Positions 38,586 to 56,871 of a DNA stretch of 64,000 nt are shown here, piece after piece (positions within the stretch are counted from its first letter, which is position 1; each line of letters starts with the position of its first letter). A model generated the notes under the pieces. That model saw only the letters and a list, made by a program, of their open reading frames with translations. It was not told where the DNA came from and did no database searches. Both the position numbers and the translations under genes were made by a program. The stretch spans positions 1 to 64,000 of the forward strand of contig CALJJZ010000017.1 in the NCBI GenBank assembly GCA_937973635.1. Direction: 5' to 3'. This DNA comes from an uncultured Bacillota bacterium. Lineage in GTDB: Bacteria > Bacillota > Dethiobacteria > DTU022 > UBA8154.

Positions 38586-39400
38586 TGTTTTGCGGCCATC
38601 TGTATGCGGAATTGTTGAACAGAGTAGAACGGGAGGAGACGGTGGCCCTGGTCACGGTGCTGGAAACAAAGGGCTCCGCCCCGGGCAAAGCTGGTTTTAA
38701 GATGCTTGTGGACGCCGACGGCCAGACCCTGGGCACCGTAGGCGGTGGGCTACTAGAAGCGACGGTGATCAAGGATGCCATGGAAGCGATGCAAGAAAGG
38801 AAATCACGCCTTTTAAGCTATACTTTGGACCGGGACAGGGCAGGAGGGCTGGGGATGATCTGCGGCGGAGAAGCAAAGGTATTTATCGACGTAATCGCTG
38901 CGCCGGAAACCCTGCTCATTGCCGGTGCGGGGCATGTAGCCCAGCCCCTGGCCGCCATGGGCGCCATTTTGGGCTTTAAAGTGGTTGTGGTGGATGACCG
39001 GGAGGATTTTTGCAACAGCGAACGTTTCCCCACGGCCTCCCGGTGCCTGGTGGGGGATATAGGGGAGCTGCTGGCGGCAGAGAAGATCACCGCCCGCACC
39101 TACATTGTGATTATTACGCGGGGGCATCTCTACGACCAGGTGGCCCTGGAAAAAACCATCAACTCCCCGGCAAGCTACATCGGCATGATCGGCAGCAGGA
39201 AAAAAGTGAAGACCATCTTTAACGAATTGCGGCAAAAAGGCGTTGCCGAGGAGAAAATTGCCCGGGTCTATGCCCCTATCGGTCTAGAAATCGGTGCCAA
39301 AACGGCGGAAGAGATCGCCGTGAGCATCCTGGCGGAAATCATCGCCCATAAGTACGGCAAAACTAATAAAAAGAAGGACGCCGCGCCGGTGCCGTCCTGA
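38585..39400 (+). CDS. XdhC/CoxI family molybdenum hydroxylase maturation protein
   Basis: 271 residues. XdhC proteins bind the molybdenum cofactor, assist its sulfuration (or selenation in related systems) and insert it into xanthine-dehydrogenase-type enzymes. The N-terminal domain has TVLETKGSAPGKAGFKMLVD and GTVGGGLLEA; the C-terminal Rossmann domain has LLIAGAGHVAQPLAAMGAI and YIGMIGSRKKVKTIF. ATG 38585 is six bases after AAAGGAGGG and overlaps the previous stop. It is a likely maturation partner of the Ndh enzyme. Confidence 0.9.
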   Translation: MFCGHLYAELLNRVEREETVALVTVLETKGSAPGKAGFKMLVDADGQTLGTVGGGLLEATVIKDAMEAMQERKSRLLSYTLDRDRAGGLGMICGGEAKVFIDVIAAPETLLIAGAGHVAQPLAAMGAILGFKVVVVDDREDFCNSERFPTASRCLVGDIGELLAAEKITARTYIVIITRGHLYDQVALEKTINSPASYIGMIGSRKKVKTIFNELRQKGVAEEKIARVYAPIGLEIGAKTAEEIAVSILAEIIAHKYGKTNKKKDAAPVPS

Positions 39401-42526: not shown

Positions 42527-43306
42527 ATGCAAGAAGGAAAGGGCACAAAATCTCTGGCCGTTGCCCTAGGCCTGCTGGATTATTTTACAGAGGAGCGGCT
42601 GCAGCTCGGCCTCTCCGCCCTGGCCAGGCTGTCCGGACTCCCCAAAGCCAATGTCTTCAGGCACCTCCTTGCCCTGGAGGAGAAGGGTTACATCAAGCAG
42701 GACGCGGCGACCAAGAAATACCAGCTCGGTTTTAAGCCCCTGGAGCTGGCCTACCTTGTGAACAAGCAATTCAGTTTGAGGGACGTCGTGCTCCCGTACA
42801 TGAAAAGACTCAAAGAAGAAACAAACGAGACGGTATGCCTGCAGGTGGAGGACAGTGGCCGGGGGATCTGCATTGAGCGCCTCGAGTCCAACAACAGGCT
42901 CCTTTACCTGCCGCCCCTGGGCAGCCGGGAATACCTTCATGCGGGGGCCTCCCGCAAGGTGCTGCTGGCTTTCCTGCCGGAAGAGCGCATCGCGGAGATC
43001 ATCGACGCCGGTTTGCCTGCGGTCACGGCGAAAACGGTAACGGATCCGGAGCAGCTGCGCCGCGATCTTAAGCTCATCCGGGAAAAAGGCTATGCCGTCA
43101 CGGAGGAAGAACATGTGGAGGGGGTGAGTGCCATCTCCGCCCCTGTGCGGGGCAGGGACGGCAAAGTGGTGGCCAGCCTCTCCATCGTGGGGCCGGCCTT
43201 CCGTTTTAACCGCGAAAAGAAAGAAAAGTACCTGGAAAAGCTGCTGCAAACGGTAAGGGAAATTTCCAGGGAACTCGGTTATCTGCCCGCTGAGCAAAGG
43301 AACTAA
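42527..43306 (+). CDS. IclR family transcriptional regulator of the nicotinate cluster
   Basis: 259 residues. N-terminal winged helix with LSALARLSGLPKANVFRHLL (about residues 25-45), then an effector domain with ASRKVLLAFLPEERIAEII and GVSAISAPVRGRDGKVVASL. It is the first gene of the plus-strand set encoding nicotinate dehydrogenase, reductase, enamidase and transporter, so it likely responds to nicotinate or a pathway intermediate (inference). ATG 42527 is preceded by GAGGGG. It is a paralogue, not a copy, of the IclR at 4.8-5.6 kb. Confidence 0.9.
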   Translation: MQEGKGTKSLAVALGLLDYFTEERLQLGLSALARLSGLPKANVFRHLLALEEKGYIKQDAATKKYQLGFKPLELAYLVNKQFSLRDVVLPYMKRLKEETNETVCLQVEDSGRGICIERLESNNRLLYLPPLGSREYLHAGASRKVLLAFLPEERIAEIIDAGLPAVTAKTVTDPEQLRRDLKLIREKGYAVTEEEHVEGVSAISAPVRGRDGKVVASLSIVGPAFRFNREKKEKYLEKLLQTVREISRELGYLPAEQRN

Positions 43307-43356
43307 AATTTACATTTTAATTATTTTGTGTGGAAAGAAAGGGGAAGAAGCAGAAG

Positions 43357-44841
43357 ATGCCATTATTACCGGAAGTCAAAAAGTATTACGGCAAACAGAA
43401 ACTTTTCATTGACGGCCAGTGGGTGGAGTCGGCCTCTACGGTAGTGCAGGAGAACACCAACCCTGCCACGGACGAGGTCATCTCCCATTTTCCCGCCGCC
43501 ACGGCGGCGGAAGCCCGCGCTGCGGTGGAAGCGGCGGCCAGGGCTTTTGTTACCTGGCAGGATGTGCCCATGCGGGAAAGGGCGCGCATGCTCTTTGATA
43601 TGCGTGCCAAGTTTGAAGAGCATTTTGACGAGCTGTGCCGCGTCCTCACCCAGGATCATGGCAGGACCATCGGCGAGTCTGAAGGTTCGGTGCGCCGCGT
43701 GATTGAAAATATCGAATCAGCCTGTTCGGCTATCTACGGCCTGGCCAAGCAGAATGAACATATGATGCAGCTGGCCAAGGGCATTGACCAGTACCTCACC
43801 TGGGAACCCCTTGGCCCCTTTTTAATTATCACCCCCGGCAATATCCCCATGCACGCCTGGTCCTCCTTTGTCCCCTATGCCCTGGCTGCAGGCTGTACAG
43901 TAGTGGTAAGCCCGAGCCGGCAGGACCCGGTGGCTGCAGAATATATTTGCAGGGCGGCCCAGGAAACGGGTTTCCCCCCCGGTGTGATCAATATGGTGCA
44001 CGGGGGCAGGGAGATCAACAAAGAGATCCTCTCCCAGCCCGAAATTAAAGGAGTGGGCTTTATTGGTTCCAACCGGGCCGGCCACGAGCTTTTCGAGCTC
44101 TGCGGCAGGCTGCGCAAGACTTCTTCCATTAACGGTAACGGCAAGAACCACGTGGTAGTCATGCCCGATGCCAACCTGAAAGAAGGGGTGCAGTGGCTGC
44201 TTAGGGCCTGCTTCGGCATGGGCGGGCAGCGCTGCCTGGGCGTGGATAACGTAGTCATTATTGGTGACATCTATAAAGAATTTAAACAAAAATTCAAGGA
44301 AGCGGCGGCGGCCATGAAACTTGGTTACGGCCTGGATACGGAGACAGAGCTGGGCCCCATGACCACCCGCGCCGGTATAGAGAGCGTGGAAAAATGGATC
44401 GAGCTTTCCCTCTCCGAAGGGGCGAAGCTGGTCCTGGACGGGCGCCGGCCCAAAGTGGAGGGCTATCCCAGGGGCTATTTCCTGGCCCCCACCATCCTGG
44501 AAGACGTGCATGTGGACATGGAGAGCGCCAAGCAGGAGGCCTTTGGCCCTGTAGCAGCCTTGATCCGGGGCGAGAGCCTGGAGCAGGCCATCGAGTGGAT
44601 CAATACCAAGACCTACCTGGGCCACTCTGCCTGCATTCTTACCAGCAGCGGCGTGGCGGCGCGCAAATTCATCAGGGAGGTCAACGTGGGCAACGTAGGT
44701 GTAAATGTGGGGGTGGCCCAGCCCTACGCTTTCTTCCCCCTGGGGTCTCGCCGGGATTCCTTTGTGGGGTCGGCCAAGTCCAGGATGGCCTCCATGCGCC
44801 TCTTTATGGACGAAAAGACGGTCTGTGCGCGTTGGGTCTAG
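43357..44841 (+). CDS. Aldehyde dehydrogenase, methylmalonate-semialdehyde dehydrogenase-like (CoA-acylating)
   Basis: About 494 residues, NAD-dependent aldehyde dehydrogenase fold. The catalytic Cys is in FGMGGQRCLGVDN (Cys293). The general-base Glu of hydrolytic family members is replaced: the site reads SINGNGKNHVVVMPDAN, the pattern of methylmalonate-semialdehyde dehydrogenase (MMSDH), which releases an acyl-CoA with loss of CO2. The two Arg that hold the substrate carboxylate in MMSDH have counterparts in GSVRRVIEN and GQRC. The adjacent enamidase makes 2-formylglutarate, a substituted malonate semialdehyde, so glutaryl-CoA is the expected product (inference). ATG 43357 follows AAAGGGG; GTG 43330 has no ribosome site. 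The next gene starts five bases after its stop. Confidence 0.88.
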   Translation: MPLLPEVKKYYGKQKLFIDGQWVESASTVVQENTNPATDEVISHFPAATAAEARAAVEAAARAFVTWQDVPMRERARMLFDMRAKFEEHFDELCRVLTQDHGRTIGESEGSVRRVIENIESACSAIYGLAKQNEHMMQLAKGIDQYLTWEPLGPFLIITPGNIPMHAWSSFVPYALAAGCTVVVSPSRQDPVAAEYICRAAQETGFPPGVINMVHGGREINKEILSQPEIKGVGFIGSNRAGHELFELCGRLRKTSSINGNGKNHVVVMPDANLKEGVQWLLRACFGMGGQRCLGVDNVVIIGDIYKEFKQKFKEAAAAMKLGYGLDTETELGPMTTRAGIESVEKWIELSLSEGAKLVLDGRRPKVEGYPRGYFLAPTILEDVHVDMESAKQEAFGPVAALIRGESLEQAIEWINTKTYLGHSACILTSSGVAARKFIREVNVGNVGVNVGVAQPYAFFPLGSRRDSFVGSAKSRMASMRLFMDEKTVCARWV

Positions 44842-44845
44842 CAGC

Positions 44846-45460
44846 ATGAGAAGGGAAGAGGTGGATGCATTGGTGGAAAAACCTGAAGTGCGTAAAATTT
44901 ATACCATTATGGAGGAGACCTACAGTGACGGCGCGGCCAGGCTTAAGAAGCCTGTGCGTAAAGCGGCGGCTGCTGTGGTCTTCAAGAACCCTTTTGTGGA
45001 TAGGTTCCAGGAAAACCTGGAGCTGCTCTACGCCTGGAGCGAAGAGCTAGGGGAGCTCCTTACTAAAAAAGCGGTGACAGCTCTAGACATTGCCCCGGCA
45101 GATGTCCATAGCTACGGTAAGGCAGCCATGGTGGGCGAAAGGGGAGAGCTGGAGCATTGCGCCGCTGTGCTGCACCCCGCCCTGGGCAAGCCCATACGTG
45201 ACCATGTAGGCGGCGGAAAGGCGATTATCCCCTCGACCAAAAAGCTGGGCTACCCCGGCGCGGCCATAGATGTGCCTCTCCATTATAAGGATGCGGCCTT
45301 TGTGCGCAGCCATTTCGACGCCATGGAGGTACGCCTGCCCGACGCCCCCAGGGCCGATGAACTTGTGCTTATCGTCGTTGTCACGGACGCAGGCCGGCCC
45401 TTCCCCAGGATCGGCGGCCTCAGCCTTGAGGAAGTCAAAGGAGAGGACGGGCTGCGCTAG
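44846..45460 (+). CDS. AA_synth (DUF1185) family protein of unknown function
   Basis: 204 residues; family PF06684, called 'amino acid synthesis' without an established reaction. Characteristic segments are FKNPFVDRFQENLELLYAWS, SYGKAAMVGERGELEHCAAV and DHVGGGKAIIPSTKKLGYPG. ATG 44846 lies five bases after the aldehyde dehydrogenase stop with no separate ribosome site, suggesting coupling. In my knowledge the family occurs in catabolic clusters with amidohydrolases, which fits this place between the aldehyde dehydrogenase and enamidase genes. Its role here could be ring-opening, isomerisation or disposal of a reactive intermediate; none is shown. Confidence 0.8.
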   Translation: MRREEVDALVEKPEVRKIYTIMEETYSDGAARLKKPVRKAAAAVVFKNPFVDRFQENLELLYAWSEELGELLTKKAVTALDIAPADVHSYGKAAMVGERGELEHCAAVLHPALGKPIRDHVGGGKAIIPSTKKLGYPGAAIDVPLHYKDAAFVRSHFDAMEVRLPDAPRADELVLIVVVTDAGRPFPRIGGLSLEEVKGEDGLR

Positions 45461-45517
45461 GGCACCTTGGGGAGCAGACTTGGCTATGTTCATAACTTGA
45501 AAAAGGGAGGGTGAAAG

Positions 45518-46681
45518 ATGGGCGTCAGCGCTCTGGTAAATATTGGTACAATTGTCAGCGGCGATATTCATGAACCTCTCTGCCGTGGCAATACGCTTAT
45601 TGTGGTGGACGGTAAGATCGCCGCCGTGGGAGGAGAAGAGCTGTTAAAGGAGTACGGGCCGACACAGGTATTTGATGTGCACGGCGCCACCGTTACGCCG
45701 GGCCTCATCGATTCCCATGTCCATCCTGTGCTGGGTGATTTTACGCCGCGGCAGAAAACGCTGGATTACCTGGACAGCTCCCTGCATGGAGGCGTTACTA
45801 CTATGATCTCCGCTGGTGAGCCCCACACGCCGGGCCGTCCCAGGGATCCTGCCGGGACTAAAGCCCTCGCCATCCTGGCCCATAAATCTTTTAAAAACTT
45901 CCGCCCGGGAGGCATGAAGATCCACGGCGGTGCCGTGATCCTGGAGAAGGGCCTTACGGAGAAGGACTTTGCCGAAATGGCGGCCGAAGGGGTCTGGCTT
46001 GTGGGCGAGGTTGGGCTGGGCAGCGTGAAGACGCCGCAGGAGGCGGTGCCTATGGTGGCCTGGGCTAAAAAATACGGCATGAAGGTCGCCGTCCATAGCG
46101 GCGGCACCTCCATCCCCGGCAGTTCGGCCATGACCGCCGCAATGGTAATGTCCATCGGACCTACGGTGGTTTCCCACACCAACGGTGGTCCCACGGCCCT
46201 GGCCCCTGCCGAAATTGACGCCCTCATTGAACAGACCTCCCTGCCCCTGGAGATTGTGCAGTGCGGCAATCTCAAGGCGGCAGACTATATTGCCCGGCGG
46301 CTGCAGGAAAGAAACCAGCTCGACCGGATTATTATCGGCAATGACTCTCCTTCGGGCAGCGGCATTATCCCTCTGGGCATCCTGCGCACCATTACCCAGC
46401 TGGCTGCCCTCTCCGGTATTGAGCCGGCCCGGGCCGTGGCCATGGCCACGGGCAACACGGCGGCCGTTTACGGGCTGCCTACTTCGTTGATTGCCCCGGG
46501 GCGGGAAGCGGACCTGGTGGTTATGGATGCGCCCATCGGCTCAGTGGGCCAAGACGCCCTGGGGGCTATGGCCGCCGGCGACCTCCCCGGCATTGCCATG
46601 GTGATGATCGACGGAGAGGTAAGGGTATGGGTAAGCAGGAACACGCCGCCACCGGTACGTCAGGTAAAAGTTAGCACATAA
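45518..46681 (+). CDS. ena: Enamidase (6-oxo-1,4,5,6-tetrahydronicotinate amidohydrolase)
   Basis: 387-residue metal-dependent amidohydrolase. In Eubacterium barkeri enamidase, a Fe-Zn enzyme, hydrolyses 1,4,5,6-tetrahydro-6-oxonicotinate to ammonia and (S)-2-formylglutarate. The sequence parallels that enzyme along its length: DSHVHP with His67 and His69, LHGGVTTMISAG, KIHGGAVILEKGLTE, GEVGLG with Glu164, HSGGTSIPGSS with His193, SHTNGGPTA with His220 and IGNDSPSG with Asp276, all expected metal or active-site positions. GGGAGG precedes ATG 45518. The next gene, 6-hydroxynicotinate reductase, makes its substrate and starts ten bases after its stop. Confidence 0.93.
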   Translation: MGVSALVNIGTIVSGDIHEPLCRGNTLIVVDGKIAAVGGEELLKEYGPTQVFDVHGATVTPGLIDSHVHPVLGDFTPRQKTLDYLDSSLHGGVTTMISAGEPHTPGRPRDPAGTKALAILAHKSFKNFRPGGMKIHGGAVILEKGLTEKDFAEMAAEGVWLVGEVGLGSVKTPQEAVPMVAWAKKYGMKVAVHSGGTSIPGSSAMTAAMVMSIGPTVVSHTNGGPTALAPAEIDALIEQTSLPLEIVQCGNLKAADYIARRLQERNQLDRIIIGNDSPSGSGIIPLGILRTITQLAALSGIEPARAVAMATGNTAAVYGLPTSLIAPGREADLVVMDAPIGSVGQDALGAMAAGDLPGIAMVMIDGEVRVWVSRNTPPPVRQVKVST

Positions 46682-46691
46682 GGTGATGGTC

Positions 46692-48221
46692 ATGGTTGTT
46701 ATAGAAAGGGAAAAATGTACGGGATGCGGCCGGTGCGCCAGGGATTGCCCCGTTGCCGCCATCGAAGTTAAAGCAAAAAAGGCTGTGGCAGCAGAGCACT
46801 GCGTACATTGCGGCGTCTGCCTGCGTGTCTGCCCGGAGGCGGCCCTTGCTCTTCCCGCCGCCATCCAGACGGAGGCCCTTACCTGTACCGCCTGCCCGGT
46901 ACGGTGTGCCATCCTGCCGGGCTATTTTGGCGCCTGCCGCCGCTACCTCAACCGGGGAGGAGAGCTGGTGCGGGAGCGGGAGCTGGTCTTTGACCTGCCG
47001 GAAAGCAGACCCCGGGAAAAGGCCATCGAACGCCCCCTGCTCACGGGGGTGGGCGCAGGCACTGCTTATCCCTGCTGCCGCCCCGCTCCCTATATCGTGC
47101 AGGACATGGTGGACGGCGTGGAGGTGGTGACGGTGGTGACGGAAGCCCCTCTGAGCTACAGCGGCGTCAAGCTCAAGATCGATACCAATTTCTTCATCGG
47201 GGTAGAAGGGGCCGTGGTGCGGCGCCGCGGCCGCGTCGTGGGCAGAGTAGAGACGGAGGAATACGGTTCCAAGATGCTCAGCATCGGCGGGGCCAACCTG
47301 CTCACGGGCAAAGACGGTTTTCTGGCAGCCCGCACCATCGTAGAGATCTGTAACGGAGAGAAAGTAACCCTTAAAGTTGAAGGGGGAGCGACCCTGGAGC
47401 TGCAGGTGGGCAAAAAGCCTGTGATTAACGGTATTGAAGACCAGAAGATGCGCGTTGGTTGCGGCAGCGCTACAGTGGGCATGTTTGCCGCGGCCCTCGC
47501 TCGGGTGGTGGACGAAGCCATTGTGCTGGACCACCACGTAGTGGGTCTCTTATCGGAACATTTTGCCGGGGAGTACGTGGGCCTGAAGTGGAGCGGCGTA
47601 GTCCCCAACGCCCGCAGGAGCACGCGGGGCCGCTATTTTGGCGCACACGGCACGGGCTGGGGCGGGACAAATATCCACGATCCCCGGGCGGCCATCCTGG
47701 AGATTAAGCGGGAGCTGGCCTGGCCGGGGATGAAAATCCTAGTTACGGAGACCACGGGGCAGCAGGCCGCCCTCTTTGTCCTCGACGATGCCTTGGAGCC
47801 GGTGGCAGCAGAGCTGACTCCGGAGATAAAAGAAGTGGTCGCCCTCATTTCTGCTTCCTGCCAGGAGGCCAGGGTTTCCGCCGTCTATACCGGCGGTACG
47901 GGGGGAAGCGCCCGGGCCGGGGTTACCCGGTACCCCCTCAGGCTTACAGAAGCGGTCCATGCAGGGGAGGCTACCCTGACCATTGGAGGCGCGCCCACTT
48001 TTATCTTGCCCGGGGGAGGAATTAATTTCCTTGTAGACGTGGAGAAGGTAGTCCCCAGGGCTTTTACTTGGGTGCCGACCCCTGCTACTGTGGCACCCGT
48101 GGAATATACCATGACCAGGGAGAAATACCGGGAGATGGGCGGCCATCTGGAGCAGATTGTCGATCTCTCCCGTTTAAAAAAAGAAAAGAGAAAGCAAGCA
48201 AAAGAAGCGGGAAAAAGGTGA
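46692..48221 (+). CDS. hnr: 6-Hydroxynicotinate reductase
   Basis: 509 residues. Reduces 6-hydroxynicotinate to 1,4,5,6-tetrahydro-6-oxonicotinate using reduced ferredoxin; the E. barkeri enzyme has one [2Fe-2S], two [4Fe-4S] clusters and a covalent flavin. Here the N-terminus holds a two-cluster ferredoxin domain (CTGCGRCARDCP and CVHCGVCLRVCP), then extra Cys in CTACPVRC and FGACRRY suited to the [2Fe-2S] cluster, then a long catalytic region containing TEAPLSYSGVKLKIDTNFFI. A GCGSATVG motif near Thr261 resembles sites flavinylated by ApbE. ATG 46692 is six bases after AAGGTG; GTG 46683 lies inside that site. It is coupled to ena. Confidence 0.9.
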   Translation: MVVIEREKCTGCGRCARDCPVAAIEVKAKKAVAAEHCVHCGVCLRVCPEAALALPAAIQTEALTCTACPVRCAILPGYFGACRRYLNRGGELVRERELVFDLPESRPREKAIERPLLTGVGAGTAYPCCRPAPYIVQDMVDGVEVVTVVTEAPLSYSGVKLKIDTNFFIGVEGAVVRRRGRVVGRVETEEYGSKMLSIGGANLLTGKDGFLAARTIVEICNGEKVTLKVEGGATLELQVGKKPVINGIEDQKMRVGCGSATVGMFAAALARVVDEAIVLDHHVVGLLSEHFAGEYVGLKWSGVVPNARRSTRGRYFGAHGTGWGGTNIHDPRAAILEIKRELAWPGMKILVTETTGQQAALFVLDDALEPVAAELTPEIKEVVALISASCQEARVSAVYTGGTGGSARAGVTRYPLRLTEAVHAGEATLTIGGAPTFILPGGGINFLVDVEKVVPRAFTWVPTPATVAPVEYTMTREKYREMGGHLEQIVDLSRLKKEKRKQAKEAGKR

Positions 48222-48228
48222 AAAGAAA

Positions 48229-49125
48229 ATGCTGCAAAAACTAGGCCCGGGCAGGTTTTACCTGGATTACGGGCCGGTGCAGATGGCTGTTTCCGCCTTT
48301 GCCGGCCGCCGGCCCCTTGAGGAAGCGCTCCAAAAGGTTGAAGTATATGTACAGGGCCTTCTGCAGGAGCTGACAGACTGCCTTGCCCTGGCCAGACAGC
48401 TGCCGCGAGAAATGTCTTTATCACCATCACCCCCTGTGCTGGAGAGCCTGCCGCCGGTCCTGCAGGAGATGATCGGCGCCGTAAGCTTAAGCGGCGACCC
48501 TGACCTGACCCCCATGGCGGCAGTGGCCGGTGCTTTTGCCGACTCTGTGGCCGATTTCCTGGTGGAGCAGGGTGCCACCAGGGTGATCGTAAACAACGGG
48601 GGAGATATTGCCCTCAGGCTGGAGGCGGGGGAAGAGCCCGTTGTTGTGGGGCTTAAACCGGACCTGGCACAGGGGGGCTGCAGCCACACCTTTCAGCTTA
48701 GGGCAGAAAGCGGCCTGCAGGGTATTGCCACCAGCGGGCTGGGCGGCAGGGGCTTTACCCTGGGCATAGCCTCAGCTGTAACCGTGGTGGCGGGAAAAGC
48801 CAGCGTGGCTGATGCTTGTGCCACCTCCCTGGCCAACAGCACCAACTTGGATCACCCCGCCATCGTCAGGCTGCCGGCGGAAAAGCTGGATCCCCGGACA
48901 GACATCAGGGGGCAGCTGGTAACAGTGCGCGTTGCCGGCCTTGAGCCCCGGGCGTACCGGCAGGCCCTGCAGGCCGGTATCGGAGCTGCCCGGCAGCTTT
49001 TGGAGAGGGGAGTTATCGGCGGTGTAGCCATCTGCGCCGGCCCATACATCTCCGTGCTGCCTTCCTCCTTTGCAGCTCAGTTCTGCTGCAGGGAGAGCAG
49101 CCTGCCGGGAGCTGTGCCGGGATAA
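48229..49125 (+). CDS. UPF0280 family protein (ApbE superfamily), candidate flavin transferase
   Basis: 298 residues of the UPF0280 family (COG2122), which belongs to the ApbE superfamily. ApbE enzymes attach FMN covalently to Thr or Ser. ApbE-like elements are visible: AAVAGAFADSVADFLVEQGA, VNNGGDIALRL near residue 125, IATSGLGGRGFTLG and SVADACATSLANST near residue 188, matching the ApbE metal-binding DA-x-AT region. It starts seven bases after hnr and follows it in the operon. Because the reductase carries a covalent flavin in E. barkeri, this may be its dedicated transferase (inference). AAAAGGTG precedes ATG 48229. Confidence 0.88.
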   Translation: MLQKLGPGRFYLDYGPVQMAVSAFAGRRPLEEALQKVEVYVQGLLQELTDCLALARQLPREMSLSPSPPVLESLPPVLQEMIGAVSLSGDPDLTPMAAVAGAFADSVADFLVEQGATRVIVNNGGDIALRLEAGEEPVVVGLKPDLAQGGCSHTFQLRAESGLQGIATSGLGGRGFTLGIASAVTVVAGKASVADACATSLANSTNLDHPAIVRLPAEKLDPRTDIRGQLVTVRVAGLEPRAYRQALQAGIGAARQLLERGVIGGVAICAGPYISVLPSSFAAQFCCRESSLPGAVPG

Positions 49126-49158
49126 AGGTATAAACAGTTACAAAAAGGAGGAGCAAAC

Positions 49159-50415
49159 TTGTCCCCAGATCATGCCATTGGTAAATCCCTGCCGCGGCTG
49201 GAGGGCTGGGAAAAAGTTACGGGCCAGTGCCGCTTTACCGACGACCTCAGTATGCCTGGGATGCTCTATGCCGGGGTGCTGCGCAGCACTGTGCCTCACG
49301 CTGAGCTGCTGGCCCTGGAGACGGAGGCAGCGTGCCGGCTGCCGGGGGTGGTGGCGGTGCTGACGGCCCGTGATGTGCCTGGCCATAATGCCGTAGGGAT
49401 TATCGTCCGTGATGAGCCAGTCCTTGTGGAAGATAAGATCAGGCGCGTCGGCGATCCCCTTGCCCTTGTGGCAGCGGAGAGCAAGAAAGCTGTGGCCGAG
49501 GCTCTGGCTGCCATAAAGGTATCTTTGCGCGAGCTGCCTGCTGTTTTTTCCCCGCGGGAAGCTATGGCCCCGGGAGCCCCCCTTTTAAGGGGCAAGACCA
49601 ATCTCTTGCTGCACCGTAAAATTCGCAAAGGGAATGTGGAGGAAGCCCTGGCCCGGGCGCACGTGGTGGTGGAAAACACCTATACGACCCCTTTTGTGGA
49701 GCACGCTGCCCTGGAACCAGAGGCCAGCCTTGCCTTGAGGGAAGGAAACAGCATTACGGTCTGGACCTCTACCCAGAACCCCCATTTCGACAGAGGAGAG
49801 ATAGCCTCTGTCCTGGGGCTGGAGCAGAATAGGGTCAGGGTAGTCCAGCAGGCTACGGGCGGCGGTTTTGGCGGCAAGCTGGATATCTCCACCCAGTGCC
49901 ATGCAGCCCTGTTGGCCTGGCATACGGGTCGTCCCGTCAAGCTCGTTTACAGCCGGGAAGAGTCTTTTATCGCTTCGGGGAAACGGCACCCTTATACAAT
50001 TAAATACCTTAGCGCCGCTAATCGGGAAGGGAAGCTGCTGGGGATTAAAGTAGAGATCCTGGCTGATACAGGCGCCTATGCCTCCTATGGGCCGGGGGTG
50101 CTTACCAGGGCCGCTGTCCATGCCACAGGACCATACTATGTTCCCCATGTGCATGTCGATGCCTACGCCGTTTATACAAACAACCCCTACTGCGGCGCCA
50201 TGCGCGGCTTTGGTGTGCCCCAAGTCGGCTTTGCCCACGAGATCCAGATGGATATACTGGCAGAGAAATTGGGCCTTGATGCCTGGGAGATCCGCAGCAA
50301 GAATTTCTTGCAGCCTGGCATGGAGACGGCCACGAACCAGCTTCTTAGACAAAGCGTGGGCATTGGGGAAACACTGCGCCGGGTCAAGGCAGAGGTAACG
50401 GAAACTGCTATTTAA
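49159..50415 (+). CDS. ndhL: Nicotinate dehydrogenase large molybdopterin subunit
   Basis: 418 residues covering the N-terminal half of a xanthine-dehydrogenase-type molybdenum subunit. It has the a/b hammerhead domain at the start (GKSLPRLEGWEKVTGQCRFT) and molybdopterin motifs QATGGGFGGKLDIS near residue 237 and GAMRGFGVPQVGFAHE near residue 350. It ends at VGIGETLRRVK, where a one-piece enzyme would continue. In E. barkeri the same cofactor subunit is uniquely divided into NdhL and NdhM. Nicotinate dehydrogenase hydroxylates nicotinate at C6, passing electrons to NADP via FeS and FAD subunits. TTG 49159 is preceded by AAAGGAGGAG. The NdhM part follows after 124 bases. Confidence 0.92.
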   Translation: MSPDHAIGKSLPRLEGWEKVTGQCRFTDDLSMPGMLYAGVLRSTVPHAELLALETEAACRLPGVVAVLTARDVPGHNAVGIIVRDEPVLVEDKIRRVGDPLALVAAESKKAVAEALAAIKVSLRELPAVFSPREAMAPGAPLLRGKTNLLLHRKIRKGNVEEALARAHVVVENTYTTPFVEHAALEPEASLALREGNSITVWTSTQNPHFDRGEIASVLGLEQNRVRVVQQATGGGFGGKLDISTQCHAALLAWHTGRPVKLVYSREESFIASGKRHPYTIKYLSAANREGKLLGIKVEILADTGAYASYGPGVLTRAAVHATGPYYVPHVHVDAYAVYTNNPYCGAMRGFGVPQVGFAHEIQMDILAEKLGLDAWEIRSKNFLQPGMETATNQLLRQSVGIGETLRRVKAEVTETAI

Positions 50416-50539
50416 CAATAATTATTAATAATTAGGGATAATTAAGAAAAGGTAATGGGCCACGGATGGCGAATCCTTAAACATAAAGGCAAAGGGAAAA
50501 GGCTGTAGCTTAGATTAAACCAAGGGAAGGAGGACGCCT

Positions 50540-51550
50540 GTGAAAAAAAGAGGCTGGGGCCTGGGCTGCATGTGGTATGGTATTGGCAATACGGGGCTGG
50601 CCAATCCCTCCGGCGCATTTATCGACCTGCTCAACGACGGGACGGTCATCCTGCTGACGGGCTGCGCCGATATAGGGCAGGGTTCCAGCACGGTGCTGGC
50701 CCAGATAGCTGCCGAAGTGCTAGGGGTGGAGCCCGGGAAGGTGCGGGTTATTGCCGGCGATACGGGGGTGACGCCGGAAGGGGGCGCCACTTCGGCCAGC
50801 AGGCAAACATATATTTCGGGCATGGCCGTCAAGGCGGCAGCGCAGCAGGCGCAGCAGCCGCTCCTAAGAAAAGCGGCGCAGCTCCTCGGCGTCCCTAAGG
50901 AGGAGCTGGTGTGCCGGGATTATAAAATATTCCCTTTTTTTGACCCGCAGCGCAGCGTGCCCTTACAGGAGATGATCAGGCAATGCCGCCGTGCCGGCGA
51001 GATGACGCTGGGACACGGTTGGTTCAATCCGTTTACCACCGGCCTGGATGAAGAGACTGGTAGGGGCAGCCCCTACGCCACCTATGCCTATGCCACCCAG
51101 TGGGCGGAGGTGGAGGTGGATACAGAGACGGGGGAAGTAACGGTCTTAAGGTTAATAGCTGCCCATGATGTGGGGAAGGCCATCAACCCTATGGCAGTAG
51201 AGGGCCAGATTGAAGGCGGCTGTGCCATGGGCCTAGGCTATGCTTTAATGGAAGAACTTATTGTAGAGGATGGTGTTATCCTCAATGCGGGCTTTGCCCA
51301 TTACCTTATTCCTACTATGGAAGACCTGCCGGAGATAAGGGCGATTATTGTAGAAGAAGCAGAGGAGACAGGACCTTTCGGCGCAAAAGGTGTGGGGGAA
51401 CCGCCCCTTATACCTACGGCGCCGGCTATTATTAACGCCGTAAGTAACGCCCTGGGGGTGCGCTTCTTTTCTCTACCCCTTACCCCAGAGAAGATCCTGG
51501 CGGCCCTGGCAAAAAAAGAAGGGCAGCAGGGAAGGAGGGAGGCAACTTAA
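50540..51550 (+). CDS. ndhM: Nicotinate dehydrogenase medium molybdopterin subunit
   Basis: 336 residues covering the C-terminal half of the molybdenum subunit. It starts KKRGWGLGCMWYGIGNTG and has GCADIGQGSSTVLAQIAAEV near residue 42, GDTGVTPEGGATSASRQTYI near residue 73 and, near the end, GPFGAKGVGEPPLIPTAPAI with the active-site Glu of the family. GTG 50540 has AAGGAGG nine bases upstream. The 124-base gap from ndhL is AT-rich with short A/T palindromes and no other signal. With NdhL it should form the complete Mo site, probably with labile selenium as in E. barkeri (inference). Confidence 0.92.
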   Translation: MKKRGWGLGCMWYGIGNTGLANPSGAFIDLLNDGTVILLTGCADIGQGSSTVLAQIAAEVLGVEPGKVRVIAGDTGVTPEGGATSASRQTYISGMAVKAAAQQAQQPLLRKAAQLLGVPKEELVCRDYKIFPFFDPQRSVPLQEMIRQCRRAGEMTLGHGWFNPFTTGLDEETGRGSPYATYAYATQWAEVEVDTETGEVTVLRLIAAHDVGKAINPMAVEGQIEGGCAMGLGYALMEELIVEDGVILNAGFAHYLIPTMEDLPEIRAIIVEEAEETGPFGAKGVGEPPLIPTAPAIINAVSNALGVRFFSLPLTPEKILAALAKKEGQQGRREAT

Positions 51551-51626
51551 GCATTAAGCTGTAATTCCTGTTAAAGAGCTGGTAAAACAAGGAACCAAAA
51601 AGAACAAAAAAGAGGAGGGTTTTACC

Positions 51627-52742
51627 TTGGTAAAGAAAAAGTTGGGGCAAAAATTTTTGCTTGTAGGATTGGTTTTGTTAATGGTAGCGGTACTGGCAGG
51701 CTGCGCGAGCAAACCGGCACCGCCTGCTGCTCCCGCCCCCGGTGAAGCTCCCGCCCCTGCTCCCGCCCCCGGACCGAAAGTGGAACTTAAATTCAGCACC
51801 TGGCACGTTCCGGCTAGCGCCGAGTGTACCACTGTCTGGGAGCCTATGCTGAAGGAGCTGGAAAAAAGGAGCAACGGCCGCATTACCACCACGCCTTATT
51901 TTGGCGGCGCCCTTGGAGCGGGGCCGGACCATTTCGACATCGTGGCCGACGGCCTCTCAGATATGGGGTACTTCACGGCGACCTGGACGCCCGGGCGCTT
52001 CCCCTTGAGTGATGTCCTCTCCATGCCTGTTTTTGTCGGCGGTAAAGAGGTGGCTGTGGACGTAGGCAATGCCATGTACGAAAAGATCTTGCACCAGGAA
52101 TTCCAAGAGGTAAAGCTCCTCAGCCTCAACGGCTGCATCCAGGCCTATTTTTGGACCACGAAGCCGGTGCGCACCCTCGAGGATGTTAAAGGCCTGCGCA
52201 TGAGGTCGCCGGGCGGCTTGCAGACCTATATGATCCAGGCCCTGGGTGCAGAGCCTGTCTTTATGCCCCTCGGTGATGTCTACCTCTCCATGGAAACAGG
52301 CGTGATCGACGGCATCGTTACCTGCCCGCAGCTTTTCTATGCCTTCAAGCTGTACGAAGTGGCGGACCACGCGGTGGTAGCTTCTTTTGGCTGTGTGACA
52401 GAAGGGGTAGCCATGAACTTGGATACTTGGAACAAGCTGCCCGACGACCTGAAAACAATCGTGGAAGAAGTAGTTTCCAACCCCTTCCGTTTAACGGGCG
52501 GCCTCAATGTGGACGCCATTAACGGCATTATGCAAAAGCTTGCTGATGCGGGCGTTAATTTCTACGAGCTGCCTGCGGCAGAAGCGGAGCGCTGGAACAA
52601 TATCTTTGCCCAAGAAGTAGTGATTAAATGGGTGGAGCAGATGGAAGCCAAGGGCCTGCCCGGCAAGGAGACCCTGCTTATGTATAAAGCGGAGCTGGAT
52701 AAGCATGGTGTCCCCTTCCCCGCGTTCCCCAAAGGATGGTAA
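51627..52742 (+). CDS. TRAP transporter substrate-binding protein DctP-type
   Basis: 371-residue extracytoplasmic receptor. Signal peptide with lipobox LAGCASKP, then an Ala/Pro linker (PAPPAAPAPGEAPAPAPAPG) and a DctP domain beginning VELKFSTWHVPASAE. The family segment TLEDVKGLRMRSPGGLQTYM carries the conserved Arg that binds a substrate carboxylate. Start is TTG 51627 after GAGGAGGG. It sits in the nicotinate operon with DctQ and DctM genes, so nicotinate, a carboxylic acid, is the most likely cargo (inference). Confidence 0.9.
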   Translation: MVKKKLGQKFLLVGLVLLMVAVLAGCASKPAPPAAPAPGEAPAPAPAPGPKVELKFSTWHVPASAECTTVWEPMLKELEKRSNGRITTTPYFGGALGAGPDHFDIVADGLSDMGYFTATWTPGRFPLSDVLSMPVFVGGKEVAVDVGNAMYEKILHQEFQEVKLLSLNGCIQAYFWTTKPVRTLEDVKGLRMRSPGGLQTYMIQALGAEPVFMPLGDVYLSMETGVIDGIVTCPQLFYAFKLYEVADHAVVASFGCVTEGVAMNLDTWNKLPDDLKTIVEEVVSNPFRLTGGLNVDAINGIMQKLADAGVNFYELPAAEAERWNNIFAQEVVIKWVEQMEAKGLPGKETLLMYKAELDKHGVPFPAFPKGW

Positions 52743-52792
52743 AAGCTTTTACGGCTGCTGCTTAACCGATCATACTGAAAGGAAAAACGCCC

Positions 52793-53311
52793 ATGCAACT
52801 GTTTGCTAGCACCAAAAAAGTGATTCAGCGTTTGACCTTTTATGTCTGCGCGGCAAGCATGTTTATGCTGGTCCCCATGATGTTTCTTACTACCATCGAT
52901 GTGATTGGCCGGGCATTTTTTGCCCGGCCTGTCCCGGGGGCCGTGGAGTTATCCGAGTACATGCTTGCCGTGGTCATACTGCTGGGCCTGGCGTATACGC
53001 AGCAGGTAAAAGGGCACCCGCGGGTTACCCTCATTGTCTCCCGCCTGCCCTGGCGCCTGCAGGCGCTCCTGGAGATAATCATGAACCTCCTGGGCATGTT
53101 TATTATTTTCATCGTCATCTGGCAGGGCTATCTCCTGGCTACAGGGCGCATGTCCACCGTTGTCTCCGATGTGCTGAGGATTCCCCAGCTTCCTTTCCGG
53201 CTCCTGGTATCTGTGGGAGGCGCGCTCCTTTTCCTGGAGCTGCTGGTGGACCTGGCTACGGCTGCAGGCAACCTGTTTAAAGGGCCACAGGGGGGAAAAG
53301 TGAAGATGTAA
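52793..53311 (+). CDS. TRAP transporter small permease DctQ-type
   Basis: 172-residue membrane protein with four helices and the DctQ signature DVIGRAFFARPVPGAVELSE near residue 40, followed by the conserved helix LAVVILLGLAYTQQVKGHPR. It forms the permease with the DctM protein. GAAAGGAAAAAC precedes ATG 52793, 50 bases after the receptor gene. Confidence 0.9.
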   Translation: MQLFASTKKVIQRLTFYVCAASMFMLVPMMFLTTIDVIGRAFFARPVPGAVELSEYMLAVVILLGLAYTQQVKGHPRVTLIVSRLPWRLQALLEIIMNLLGMFIIFIVIWQGYLLATGRMSTVVSDVLRIPQLPFRLLVSVGGALLFLELLVDLATAAGNLFKGPQGGKVKM

Positions 53312-53408
53312 ACCAGAGCAGCGGCAGGGCTCTGTCCTTGCCGCCGCGCCGGGTTTTTGCGTTAAGGAATTTTTTTAATGCCTGGTATGAAGGTAGGGAG
53401 GAGTAGAC

Positions 53409-54716
53409 GTGGATCCCATCATTGTCGGTATAATCGGAACGCTTTTTGCCTTTCTCCTGTTGTTTCTGAGTATGCCCATTGCCCTGGCCTTAATGCTCAC
53501 AGGTTTCCTGGGGATCTGGCACCTGGCTTCCCTCAATGCGGCCTATCCTGTGGCTGCCAGGGTTATCTATGCCGTTTCCAGCCAGTATGCCTATATGGTC
53601 ATCCCCCTTTTCCTGCTGATGGGGGCTTTTGCCAGCAGCAGCGGCCTGATTGAAAACCTTTACCGCTCCTTTGATAAATGGCTGCGCCGCTTTCCCGGGG
53701 GGCTGGGTGCGGCAACCATTGCCGCCTGTGCCGGTTTTGCCGCCGTCTCTGGTTCGGCTGTGGCTACGGCAGCGGCCATGGGGACGATAGCGTATCCGGA
53801 GATGAAGAAATTCAATTACTCGCCAAGGCTGGCCACAGGCACCATCGCCGCCGGGGGCACCCTCGGCTTCCTCATTCCCCCCAGTATTGGTTTTGTCGTT
53901 TACGGTATGCTCGTGGAGCAGTCCATCGGCAAGCTGCTGGTTGCCGGGATCTTTCCCGGCCTGGCTCTGGCGGCGACCTTTATTGCCATTATTGTCATCC
54001 AGGTAAAGTTAAATCCAAGTCTGGCCCCCGCCAGTCCGGGCTCTGTCAGCTGGAAAGAAAAAATCCTTGCTCTTAACGGGGTTTGGGAGATACTGCTGGT
54101 CTTCCTCATTGTCATGGGAGGTATCTACCTGGGCTGGTTCAGCCCTACGGAAGCCGGAGCCACTGGTGCTACGCTCCTTTTCTTCGTTGCCCTCTTCAAG
54201 CGGAAGCTCAATTTTCAAAACCTTTTTAAGGGTATGCAAGAAGCGGTCCGTGTTTCCGTAATGGTGCTTTTTCTGGTAGCGGGGGCCTCGGTCTTCAGTT
54301 ATTTCCTGGCCCTCTCCACCATACCGGCCCAGCTGGCCAACTGGGTCGTGGGTCTGGACGTCTCGCCCTATGTTGTACTTACCATTATCTTGCTTATTTA
54401 TTTCTTCCTGGGTTGCTTTATCGATGCCGTCTCCATGATGGTCCTGACTCTGCCGGTAATCTTTCCCCTTATTCTCAGGCTGGGTTTTGACCCCATTTTG
54501 TTTGGTGTTTTGTGCGTGCTGATGATGCAGGTGGGCCTTATTACGCCGCCCATGGGCCTTAACCTCTATACCATTGCCGGTTCGGCCAAGGACGTGAAGC
54601 TGGAAGATATCTTTGCCGGAGCCATACCTTTTGTCATCCCCATTCTGGTTATCGTTGTGCTCATTATCATCTTTCCAGAGATCGCCCTCTACCTGCCTGA
54701 AAGGATGTTTAAATAG
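53409..54716 (+). CDS. TRAP transporter large permease DctM-type
   Basis: 435-residue membrane protein with about 12 helices. Family motifs are GFAAVSGSAVATAAAMGTIA near residue 118, TIAAGGTLGFLIPPSIGFVV near residue 144 and QVGLITPPMGLNLYTIAGSA near the C-terminus. GTG 53409 has GGGAGGAG upstream. Its stop is immediately followed by the ndhF start, tying the transporter to the dehydrogenase genes. Confidence 0.92.
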   Translation: MDPIIVGIIGTLFAFLLLFLSMPIALALMLTGFLGIWHLASLNAAYPVAARVIYAVSSQYAYMVIPLFLLMGAFASSSGLIENLYRSFDKWLRRFPGGLGAATIAACAGFAAVSGSAVATAAAMGTIAYPEMKKFNYSPRLATGTIAAGGTLGFLIPPSIGFVVYGMLVEQSIGKLLVAGIFPGLALAATFIAIIVIQVKLNPSLAPASPGSVSWKEKILALNGVWEILLVFLIVMGGIYLGWFSPTEAGATGATLLFFVALFKRKLNFQNLFKGMQEAVRVSVMVLFLVAGASVFSYFLALSTIPAQLANWVVGLDVSPYVVLTIILLIYFFLGCFIDAVSMMVLTLPVIFPLILRLGFDPILFGVLCVLMMQVGLITPPMGLNLYTIAGSAKDVKLEDIFAGAIPFVIPILVIVVLIIIFPEIALYLPERMFK

Positions 54717-55601
54717 ATGTACAGGGCCTACTACAGACCGAAAAGTGTGGCGGAAGCCCTGGCGTTGCTGCAGGAAGGGGGAGGACGAGCCAGGGTCCTG
54801 GCCGGGGGCACCGACCTGATGCTGCAGTTAAAAAAAGGGGAGCTCTCCTGCGATGCAGTTGTGGATATCAGCGGGGTTAAAGACTTGCGTTATATCAGGG
54901 AGGAAGGGGGACGGCTTTATATTGGGGCCCTCAGTACCCATACAGATCTGGCTGAGTCTGCTCTTTTGGAAAAAGAAGCTCCCCTGCTGGCCGCGGCGGC
55001 CAGAAGCGTGGGTTCCCTGCAGATCCGCAATGTGGGAACAGTGGGGGGTAATGTGGTAAACGCCCAGCCGGCGGCTGATACGGCCGTCCCCCTTATGGCC
55101 CTCAAGGCCGTGGCCACAATTGTCTCTCCCGCCGGGGTAAGGCAGGTTTTTCTGGATGACCTCTACCGTCCGGAGGGAGGGGTAAAGCTCGATCCCACTT
55201 GTGAGCTATTAACGGAGTTTTCCTTTGTTTCACCCCGGGCGGCAGGAGCGGGCGCCGCTTTTGGCCGGGTGGCCCGGCGCAGGGCCCTGGCCCTGCCTGT
55301 TTTCAATACAGCCGTGCTGCTTGTGCCCGGCGCAGGCCGTGCCTTCCTGACAGAAGCCCGCATTGTCATGGGTCCGGTGGCCCGTTTGCCTTTGCGGGCC
55401 AGGCAGGGGGAGAGGGTATTGCTGGAGCAGGGGGCCGGCGAGGAGATTTTTCTGCAGGCGGCGGCAGCCGCCTCTTTGGAAGCTGCACCCCGGGACAGCG
55501 TTTTCCGCGGTAGTGCCCGCTACCGTAAAAAACTGGCCCGGGTAATAGTTTACCGCACCCTGCTGCAGGCCTGGGAAAACGCTTGTTCCCGCGTGGATTA
55601 A
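54717..55601 (+). CDS. ndhF: Nicotinate dehydrogenase FAD subunit
   Basis: 294 residues of the CoxM/XdhB FAD-binding family. FAD-contact motifs are VLAGGTDLMLQLKKGEL near residue 27 and SLQIRNVGTVGGNVVNAQPA near residue 100; the C-terminal CO-dehydrogenase-flavoprotein domain follows. It passes electrons from the FeS subunit to NAD(P). ATG 54717 directly follows the DctM stop codon. The NdhF and NdhS genes are separated from ndhLM by the transporter genes and from each other by an unknown gene. Confidence 0.92.
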   Translation: MYRAYYRPKSVAEALALLQEGGGRARVLAGGTDLMLQLKKGELSCDAVVDISGVKDLRYIREEGGRLYIGALSTHTDLAESALLEKEAPLLAAAARSVGSLQIRNVGTVGGNVVNAQPAADTAVPLMALKAVATIVSPAGVRQVFLDDLYRPEGGVKLDPTCELLTEFSFVSPRAAGAGAAFGRVARRRALALPVFNTAVLLVPGAGRAFLTEARIVMGPVARLPLRARQGERVLLEQGAGEEIFLQAAAAASLEAAPRDSVFRGSARYRKKLARVIVYRTLLQAWENACSRVD

Positions 55602-55693
55602 ACTTGAGTCCCCCGGGGCCGGGAGCCATTTCCCCATTCCGGCGGCGGATGCTGGAACTGCCATAAACTTTTTAAGAAAAAGGTGAAAATATT

Positions 55694-56368
55694 TTGGAGG
55701 GTAAACTAAAGAGCGTTACAGGCAGGCAGGCCCTGCCGAAGAGGGCCTGCCGCCCGTTCCTGGCCCTGGTGTTATGCTTGTTATGCGTGGCGGTCTCCCT
55801 GGCGCTGCTGCAGCCTGCAGCCCTGGCCTGCAGCGGTTGTGCCTTTAACTATCCCTGGCTGCACAGCTTCCCTACCGACGAGGAGCTGGCCCAGGCTACG
55901 GCGGAATTTTTCCGGGAATATGCCACCAGGCAGGCAGGAAGCGGCGCAGCGTTTGGCTGGACCGATTACTGGCATCTCAGGCTGGAAAGGCCGGGGGTCG
56001 AAGAACAGTATAAGATCGTCGAAGTGATCCTCTGTTTTAAAGAGGAACCGGCCGCCGGCAGCGCTACAGGGAGCGCAAGCTACCATTTTACTACCCTGGC
56101 TTTTGACCGAGAGAAGGGCTATTTTTTCTGGCCCCACAGTATGGGCTCCTTCGACGACAGGGGAAAATTGGAAGCCTATCTGGATGAGTATGTGATCAAC
56201 AGGCTTGCGGCTACAGAGGTGAGGGAAGCCGGCAAACCGGCCGCTGCAGCGCCGCCGCGGCAGACCCCGGGGAACGAGCTGCTCCTCGTGCTTCTGGCTG
56301 TTGTCCTGGGGGTCCTGTTGCTGACTTCCAGGGCGAGGCATAAAGCCGGCCAGGGTCAGGGCAGATAA
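55694..56368 (+). CDS. Secreted membrane-anchored protein of unknown function
   Basis: 224 residues, not recognised. A basic start and hydrophobic segment (about residues 24-44) end at LACSGCAFN, which could be a signal cleavage site or the start of a CxxC pair. The middle region is soluble (TDYWHLRLERPGVEEQYKIV, FDREKGYFFWPHSMGSFDDR). A linker rich in Ala and Pro leads to a C-terminal membrane helix (LLLVLLAVVLGVLLL) and basic tail. TTG 55694 has AAAGGTG upstream. It stands between ndhF and ndhS in the same direction, so it is presumably expressed with the dehydrogenase. Nothing in the sequence assigns a function. Confidence 0.7.
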   Translation: MEGKLKSVTGRQALPKRACRPFLALVLCLLCVAVSLALLQPAALACSGCAFNYPWLHSFPTDEELAQATAEFFREYATRQAGSGAAFGWTDYWHLRLERPGVEEQYKIVEVILCFKEEPAAGSATGSASYHFTTLAFDREKGYFFWPHSMGSFDDRGKLEAYLDEYVINRLAATEVREAGKPAAAAPPRQTPGNELLLVLLAVVLGVLLLTSRARHKAGQGQGR

Positions 56369-56397
56369 CGGCGATTTTGAGGAGGGGTGCCTCAGTG

Positions 56398-56871
56398 ATG
56401 AAGAAACAGCTGACTTTTGTGTTAAACGGCAAAAAAATCTCTGTAGAGGCGGAAGCCGACACCCTTTTGCTCGACTTGCTGCGGGAAACCCTGGGCCTCA
56501 CAGGGACCAAACGCGGCTGTGGCGAAGGTGAATGCGGGGCCTGCACGGTACTCGTCAATGGAGAGACCGTCAATTCCTGCATTTATCCTGCCTGGAAAGC
56601 GGAGCACAGCGAGCTGCTTACGGTAGAAGGGCTGGGTGACAGGGAAAACCCCCATCCCCTGCAGGAAGCTTTCCTGGAGCAGGGGGCGGTGCAGTGCGGC
56701 TTCTGCACGCCGGGCATGCTTGTCTCCGCCTACGGGCTGCTGCAAAAGACGCCGACTCCCGGCACGGAGGAGATTAAGAGCGCCCTGGCGGGCAATCTCT
56801 GCCGCTGCACCGGGTATAAAAAGATTATCGCAGCTGTCAAGGCGGCCTCCTTAAAGATCTCCCAGCCCTAG
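56398..56871 (+). CDS. ndhS: Nicotinate dehydrogenase small [2Fe-2S] subunit
   Basis: 157 residues of the CoxS/XdhC-type two-cluster FeS family. The plant-type ferredoxin site is KRGCGEGECGACTVLVNGE with a fourth Cys in VNSCIYP; the second, all-helical cluster uses CGFCTPGM and CRCTGYKK. It carries electrons from the molybdenum site to FAD. ATG 56398 is ten bases after GAGGAGGGG; TTG 56377 is an unlikely earlier start. It is the last gene of the nicotinate operon, convergent with the cysteine desulfurase gene. Confidence 0.93.
   Translation: MKKQLTFVLNGKKISVEAEADTLLLDLLRETLGLTGTKRGCGEGECGACTVLVNGETVNSCIYPAWKAEHSELLTVEGLGDRENPHPLQEAFLEQGAVQCGFCTPGMLVSAYGLLQKTPTPGTEEIKSALAGNLCRCTGYKKIIAAVKAASLKISQP

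Follow-up and report, generated by a model that had tools for sequence, protein, structure and literature searches.

How can an anaerobe that carries the upper nicotinate pathway of Eubacterium barkeri dispose of the resulting 2-formylglutarate when the B12-dependent lower branch of that organism is missing? The question is raised by an operon of an uncultured Bacillota bacterium (assembly GCA_937973635.1), found in the first 64,000 nucleotides of contig CALJJZ010000017.1, which are called the window here. Its genes all lie on the + strand, beginning with an IclR gene (42527) and ending with NdhS (56871), and every intergenic gap is below 130 bases. An original prediction, made from the sequence, had proposed that a single aldehyde dehydrogenase (ALDH) replaces the lower branch and converts 2-formylglutarate directly to glutaryl-CoA, CO2 and NADH. 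Our analysis makes it likely that the E. barkeri upper pathway is indeed joined to such a direct exit. The operon is probably a variant of a known pathway, and this reading of it is probably correct.

The upper pathway and the missing lower branch

The split molybdopterin subunits NdhL and NdhM, together with NdhF, NdhS, 6-hydroxynicotinate reductase and enamidase, are all present, as in the E. barkeri cluster (Alhapel et al. 2006). The enamidase matches that of E. barkeri (2VUN) over its full length with 536 bits. NdhL finds its best match in the large subunit of E. barkeri nicotinate dehydrogenase (3HRD, 431 bits, against 228 bits for 1RM6). Among solved structures, the E. barkeri proteins are by far the closest to both. 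Domain and structure searches placed every gene named in the original prediction where it had been put; the AA_synth/DUF1185, UPF0280 and transporter genes had been left out of that inventory. By this upper pathway, NdhLMFS would convert nicotinate to 6-hydroxynicotinate, the reductase would form 1,4,5,6-tetrahydro-6-oxonicotinate, and the enamidase would release 2-formylglutarate and ammonia.

The genes that serve the steps after 2-formylglutarate in E. barkeri, namely those for 2-(hydroxymethyl)glutarate dehydrogenase, the dehydratase, the B12 mutase and the isomerase, are missing from the operon, as had been claimed, and an ALDH of the methylmalonate-semialdehyde dehydrogenase (MMSDH) family stands there instead. 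The host genome, a 2.56 Mb draft of 98 contigs that is 96% complete, was searched family by family. For 2-methyleneglutarate mutase, only matches to B12-binding domains were obtained in it, at 36 bits or less, and for the PrpF-type isomerase (methylitaconate isomerase) there was no match. An HgD-type 2-(hydroxymethyl)glutarate dehydrogenase (HIBADH family) was also not found in the draft, the best NAD_binding_2 match being 36 bits, where genuine HgD-like proteins score about 170-190 bits. Genes for dimethylmalate dehydratase and lyase were looked for in the operon alone and are not present there. A 593-residue open reading frame (ORF) with a B12 domain (C65) was considered as a mutase and rejected; by sequence it resembles a radical SAM protein, and the mutase query did not match it.

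The aldehyde dehydrogenase

In MMSDHs, the aldehyde is oxidized to an enzyme thioester, the beta-carboxylate is lost as CO2, and the acyl group is released by CoA. As 2-formylglutarate can be seen as malonate semialdehyde substituted with a carboxyethyl group, the window enzyme would oxidize it to a thioester, yielding NADH; the thioester would then lose its beta-carboxylate as CO2, and CoA would release glutaryl-CoA. The substrate, the use of CoA, the decarboxylation and the flux through this step are inferred.

The enzyme starts at 43357, and several of its orthologues are likewise 494 residues long. It scores 388 bits against TIGR01722 (MMSDH), under the curated cut-off of 448.5, and is therefore a divergent member of the family. 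With MMSDH, IolA and ALDH6 it shares the catalytic Cys (Cys293), the two carboxylate-binding Arg (Arg114 and Arg292) and the lack of the general-base Glu (Glu268), the place of which is taken by Asn259. It differs from them in its nicotinate genome context and is about 34-42% identical to the Bacillota MMSDHs compared. The Asn and the two Arg named in the original prediction are thus present in the window protein; as a rule for the whole family, however, the Asn does not hold, other MMSDHs having Leu, Gln or Met at this position.

The comparison was carried over 22 ALDHs of nicotinate clusters, which fall into two clades. All 22 keep the catalytic Cys and both carboxylate-binding Arg, and in none is the general-base Glu present; the window clade has Asn there and the second clade Gln. 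This bears on the possibility that the ALDH is hydrolytic and forms glutarate, as in the Azorhizobium route, to be activated later by a CoA-transferase. Such chemistry is known from aerobes that share this upper pathway (PMC3511419), but the replacement of the Glu throughout the set argues against it, and no such ALDH lies within 12 kb in those reductase clusters of Alphaproteobacteria and Betaproteobacteria that were examined. No CoA-transferase gene is present in the operon, to which this check was confined. We regard a hydrolytic enzyme as very improbable.

It may also be imagined that 2-formylglutarate loses CO2 first, either spontaneously or through a protein such as AA_synth, and that the ALDH then acylates CoA from glutarate semialdehyde, again giving glutaryl-CoA. 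Decarboxylation reportedly comes before oxidation in Azorhizobium, beta-aldehydo acids lose CO2 readily, and an AA_synth gene is nearly always nearby. However, the invariance of both carboxylate-binding Arg in the 22 enzymes fits a substrate that still has its alpha-carboxylate. Moreover, AA_synth is equally frequent in clusters of the E. barkeri type (Barkeri-type), where this step has no known decarboxylation. This order of events therefore appears unlikely, and oxidation with the carboxylate in place is preferred.

Three further positions set the nicotinate enzymes apart. At position 465, 20 of the 22 have Arg and two have Lys, against Trp, His, Tyr, Met or Thr in 12 other MMSDHs; Arg at position 476 is found in all 22 but in none of the 12; and position 423 is His in all 22, where the others have Asn. 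The window enzyme carries Arg465, Arg476 and His423. A substrate with a second carboxylate would call for extra positive charge, and Arg465 and Arg476 may be what contacts it. In an AlphaFold model of the enzyme (predicted local distance difference test score 84), the loop 454-476 is poor, so no distances were drawn for these two residues.

Two mutually exclusive gene sets among nicotinate loci

In 399 genomes of the phylum, we searched for enamidase and read the regions that matched. In many of these clusters, the upper genes are followed by HgD, a serine-dehydratase-like enzyme, a 620-residue B12 mutase and a PrpF-type isomerase (types checked in locus L054). In two genomes, G112 (L055) and G280 (L056), an MMSDH-family ALDH is found in place of the lower-pathway genes, and these two ALDHs exceed the TIGR01722 cut-off with 462 and 494 bits.

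Further, GTDB genomes were scanned with an alignment of the reductase, which gave 80 named loci with 6-hydroxynicotinate reductase. An MMSDH-family ALDH is present in 21 of them and the mutase, isomerase or dehydratase in 30, while 29 have neither (many being short contigs) and none has both. The exclusion has a Fisher p of 1e-5, which ignores kinship and serves as a guide only. No ALDH of any type was matched in the 30 Barkeri-type loci, the mean locus length being about equal in both sets.

The window ALDH has 11 near-complete orthologues (68-79% identity), all inside nicotinate clusters that are without mutase, isomerase and dehydratase. Their hosts are Bacillota, Thermodesulfobacteriota, other deltaproteobacterial metagenome-assembled genomes (MAGs) and one Armatimonadetes MAG. 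The second clade (35-39% identity to the window ALDH) follows the same pattern and takes this place in other nicotinate clusters, among them those of Actinomycetota MAGs. Outside nicotinate clusters, the closest ALDH in the 399 genomes has 42% identity, and its gene has no evident nicotinate genes nearby. In the tree, a supported branch separates both nicotinate clades from ten other Firmicutes MMSDHs. The branch of the window clade is long, and the enzyme may have been recruited once or twice. Mean identity to the window in the orthologue loci is 75% for the ALDH, 61% for the enamidase and 57% for the reductase; the higher conservation of the ALDH suggests either a separate transfer of its gene or a stronger constraint. 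In Acididesulfobacillus acetoxydans (L102, 383-4490), the nicotinate-cluster ALDH gene is split by an insertion with a transposase-like ORF.

Predicted oxidation of glutaryl-CoA and the redox balance

Glutaryl-CoA would be carried through crotonyl-CoA to two acetyl-CoA by an acyl-CoA dehydrogenase, crotonase, hydroxybutyryl-CoA dehydrogenase and thiolase encoded elsewhere. A candidate glutaryl-CoA dehydrogenase was found in the genome. The host encodes three acyl-CoA dehydrogenases, one of which (C58) has as its best solved match the Desulfococcus glutaryl-CoA dehydrogenase (3MPI). It bears the glutaryl-binding Arg, which is absent from the other two, and its gene adjoins those for crotonase, 3-hydroxybutyryl-CoA dehydrogenase and thiolase. 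The predicted step is the same as that of the Desulfococcus enzyme, the Arg and Glu of which are conserved; the host enzyme differs in being encoded away from the operon, and it may be decarboxylating or non-decarboxylating. As for a separate glutaconyl-CoA decarboxylase, the single carboxyltransferase of the host matches mmdA with 837 bits, below the cut-off of 999, and its one OAD_beta gene lies next to a small biotin-carrier-like ORF; these may or may not act on glutaconyl-CoA.

When 49 genomes were surveyed with the 3MPI sequence (E <= 1e-95), 17 of the 21 ALDH-type genomes had a match, against 4 of the 28 genomes of the Barkeri type, all four of the latter being Desulfosporosinus. A glutaryl-CoA dehydrogenase bearing the Arg is present in 16/21 and 4/28, respectively (Fisher p 2e-5).

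Some observations weigh against the direct exit. The ALDH scores below the MMSDH cut-off, and its substrate may differ in some way from methylmalonate semialdehyde. C58 scores higher as acryloyl-CoA reductase (404 bits) than as glutaryl-CoA dehydrogenase (372 bits) in NCBIfam, both below cut-off, and the co-occurrence of the latter enzyme with the ALDH type is confounded by taxonomy. HgD-like genes are present in two ALDH-type loci, L086 (9317-9985) and L101 (12210-13112), perhaps as relics of a replaced B12 branch. Together with the draft state of the host genome, these genes leave room for the ALDH to act on another aldehyde, such as malonate semialdehyde, while 2-formylglutarate is reduced by a dispersed or undetected pathway. 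Against this stand the lack of mutase and isomerase in the draft, the mutual exclusion over 80 loci, and the failure to find a close ALDH orthologue outside nicotinate clusters; we give this explanation little credence. The comparative support for a replacement of the B12 branch by an ALDH that forms glutaryl-CoA (the locus exclusion, the conserved residues and the dehydrogenase co-occurrence) is strong; the activity itself is predicted.

The original prediction had called the route a fermentation, but it would not be a redox-balanced one. Nicotinate holds 22 electrons and two acetates 16, which leaves six over, whereas the E. barkeri products propionate and acetate hold 22 and are balanced with nicotinate. 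By stoichiometry, the net products are two acetyl-CoA, two CO2 and NH3, with six electrons released. The window pathway would therefore be oxidative and need an acceptor or a partner. This fits the many ALDH-type relatives that belong to sulfate-reducing or syntrophic groups; Desulfosporosinus, which carries the Barkeri type, is an exception to the sulfate-reducer trend.

Relation to known nicotinate systems

The products of the window pathway would be acetyl-CoA and CO2, in place of the propionate and pyruvate of E. barkeri. Barkeri-type clusters share AA_synth and UPF0280 with the window operon, and the proteobacterial plasmid relatives share the gene order reductase-UPF0280-AA_synth. In the plasmid-borne proteobacterial reductase clusters examined, no MMSDH-type ALDH lies within 12 kb.

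In Azorhizobium, glutarate is said to be a free intermediate that is activated with succinyl-CoA. Azorhizobium-type systems are aerobic and use an ATP-binding cassette (ABC) transporter, whereas the window operon has a tripartite ATP-independent periplasmic (TRAP) transporter. The reductive 6-hydroxynicotinate route without B12, ending in glutaryl-CoA and crotonyl-CoA, would be common to the window pathway, Azorhizobium caulinodans (Kitts 1989, 1992) and Bradyrhizobiaceae SG-6C. A B12-free breakdown through glutarate was already reported for A. caulinodans (Kitts 1992, as cited in PMC3511419), so that being B12-free does not by itself make the route a different one, as had been claimed. What is probably new is the direct, CoA-acylating, one-gene exit to glutaryl-CoA in anaerobes. 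A literature search found nothing that links an MMSDH to nicotinate degradation, subscription papers being outside its reach.

Operon layout and accessory genes

The order of genes in the operon is given in Table 1.

Table 1. Genes of the nicotinate operon and two accessory genes upstream, with positions in the window
Feature	Position	Strand	Basis
YqeB, selenium-dependent molybdenum hydroxylase maturation (accessory)	36649..37476	+	TIGR03309 369 bits, cut-off 220
XdhC-family molybdenum enzyme maturation factor (accessory)	38582..39400	+	NF045664 307 bits, below cut-off 350
IclR-family regulator, likely of the operon	42527..43306	+	PF01614, PF09339
MMSDH-family ALDH, predicted CoA-acylating; proposed 2-formylglutarate dehydrogenase (decarboxylating, glutaryl-CoA forming)	43357..44841	+	best PDB matches MMSDH
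AA_synth/DUF1185 protein	44846..45460	+	PF06684 3e-69; 2QTP 216 bits
Enamidase (1,4,5,6-tetrahydro-6-oxonicotinate to 2-formylglutarate and NH3)	45518..46681	+	2VUN match
6-Hydroxynicotinate reductase	46683..48221	+	Fe-S domains; plasmid homologues bear same annotation; reductase alignment
UPF0280/ApbE-like protein	48229..49125	+	NF003322 225 bits; ApbE match sub-threshold
NdhL, nicotinate dehydrogenase large molybdopterin subunit	49159..50415	+	3HRD chain A 431 bits
NdhM, nicotinate dehydrogenase medium molybdopterin subunit	50540..51550	+	PF20256 7e-86
TRAP transporter (binding protein and two membrane subunits, small and large), probably for nicotinate uptake	51627..54716	+	three ORFs
NdhF, nicotinate dehydrogenase FAD subunit	54717..55601	+	PF00941, PF03450
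Hypothetical protein, N-terminal signal-like and C-terminal hydrophobic segments	55694..56368	+	ORF
NdhS, nicotinate dehydrogenase [2Fe-2S] subunit	56377..56871	+	PF01799, PF00111

YqeB and the XdhC-family protein are consistent with a selenium-containing molybdenum hydroxylase, as in E. barkeri. An IclR gene 68% identical to that of the window opens the nicotinate cluster of Dethiobacter (L086), and homologous TRAP genes are found in the clusters L087, L120, L141, L144 and L150. The hypothetical protein between NdhF and NdhS has a CSGCAFNYPW motif, and a 42% identical relative follows NdhF in L087.

AA_synth has a chorismate-mutase-like fold that resembles RidA, and it could possibly hydrolyze the enamine formed after ring opening. 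The fold itself is described for AA_synth/DUF1185 in PMC2954203. The gene is present in most loci with 6-hydroxynicotinate reductase and belongs to the core of clusters with either exit; some Proteobacteria have it twice. It was considered as specific to the glutaryl-CoA exit and rejected, as it accompanies the reductase, along with UPF0280, in both cluster types and in Proteobacteria.

UPF0280, which has a weak similarity to ApbE, is likewise a core gene and adjoins the reductase in most loci. The E. barkeri reductase is reported to hold a covalent flavin, and an invariant GCGSAT motif (residues 259-264) is common to the aligned Bacillota reductases. It may be speculated that UPF0280 is the flavin transferase for this enzyme. 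Some Alphaproteobacterial reductase clusters (the plasmid loci L165, L166 and L168) have no enamidase match nearby but contain pairs of hydantoinase/acetophenone-carboxylase-like genes, which may encode a different enzyme for ring opening.

Implications

We lean towards a wider proposal, in which CoA-acylating 2-formylglutarate dehydrogenases would form a distinct family that reads the distal carboxylate with an extra Arg (465 and/or 476). They would define an oxidative nicotinate pathway that is widespread, across several phyla, among sulfate reducers, syntrophs and related anaerobes, and would be exchanged as a module with the B12-dependent fermentative branch. If this is true, it would give a gene-level explanation for the complete oxidation of nicotinate by anaerobes without that branch, and a probable substrate for an ALDH subfamily found in the genomes of several phyla. 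Whether the pathway is fermentative or oxidative would then be linked to one swappable gene.

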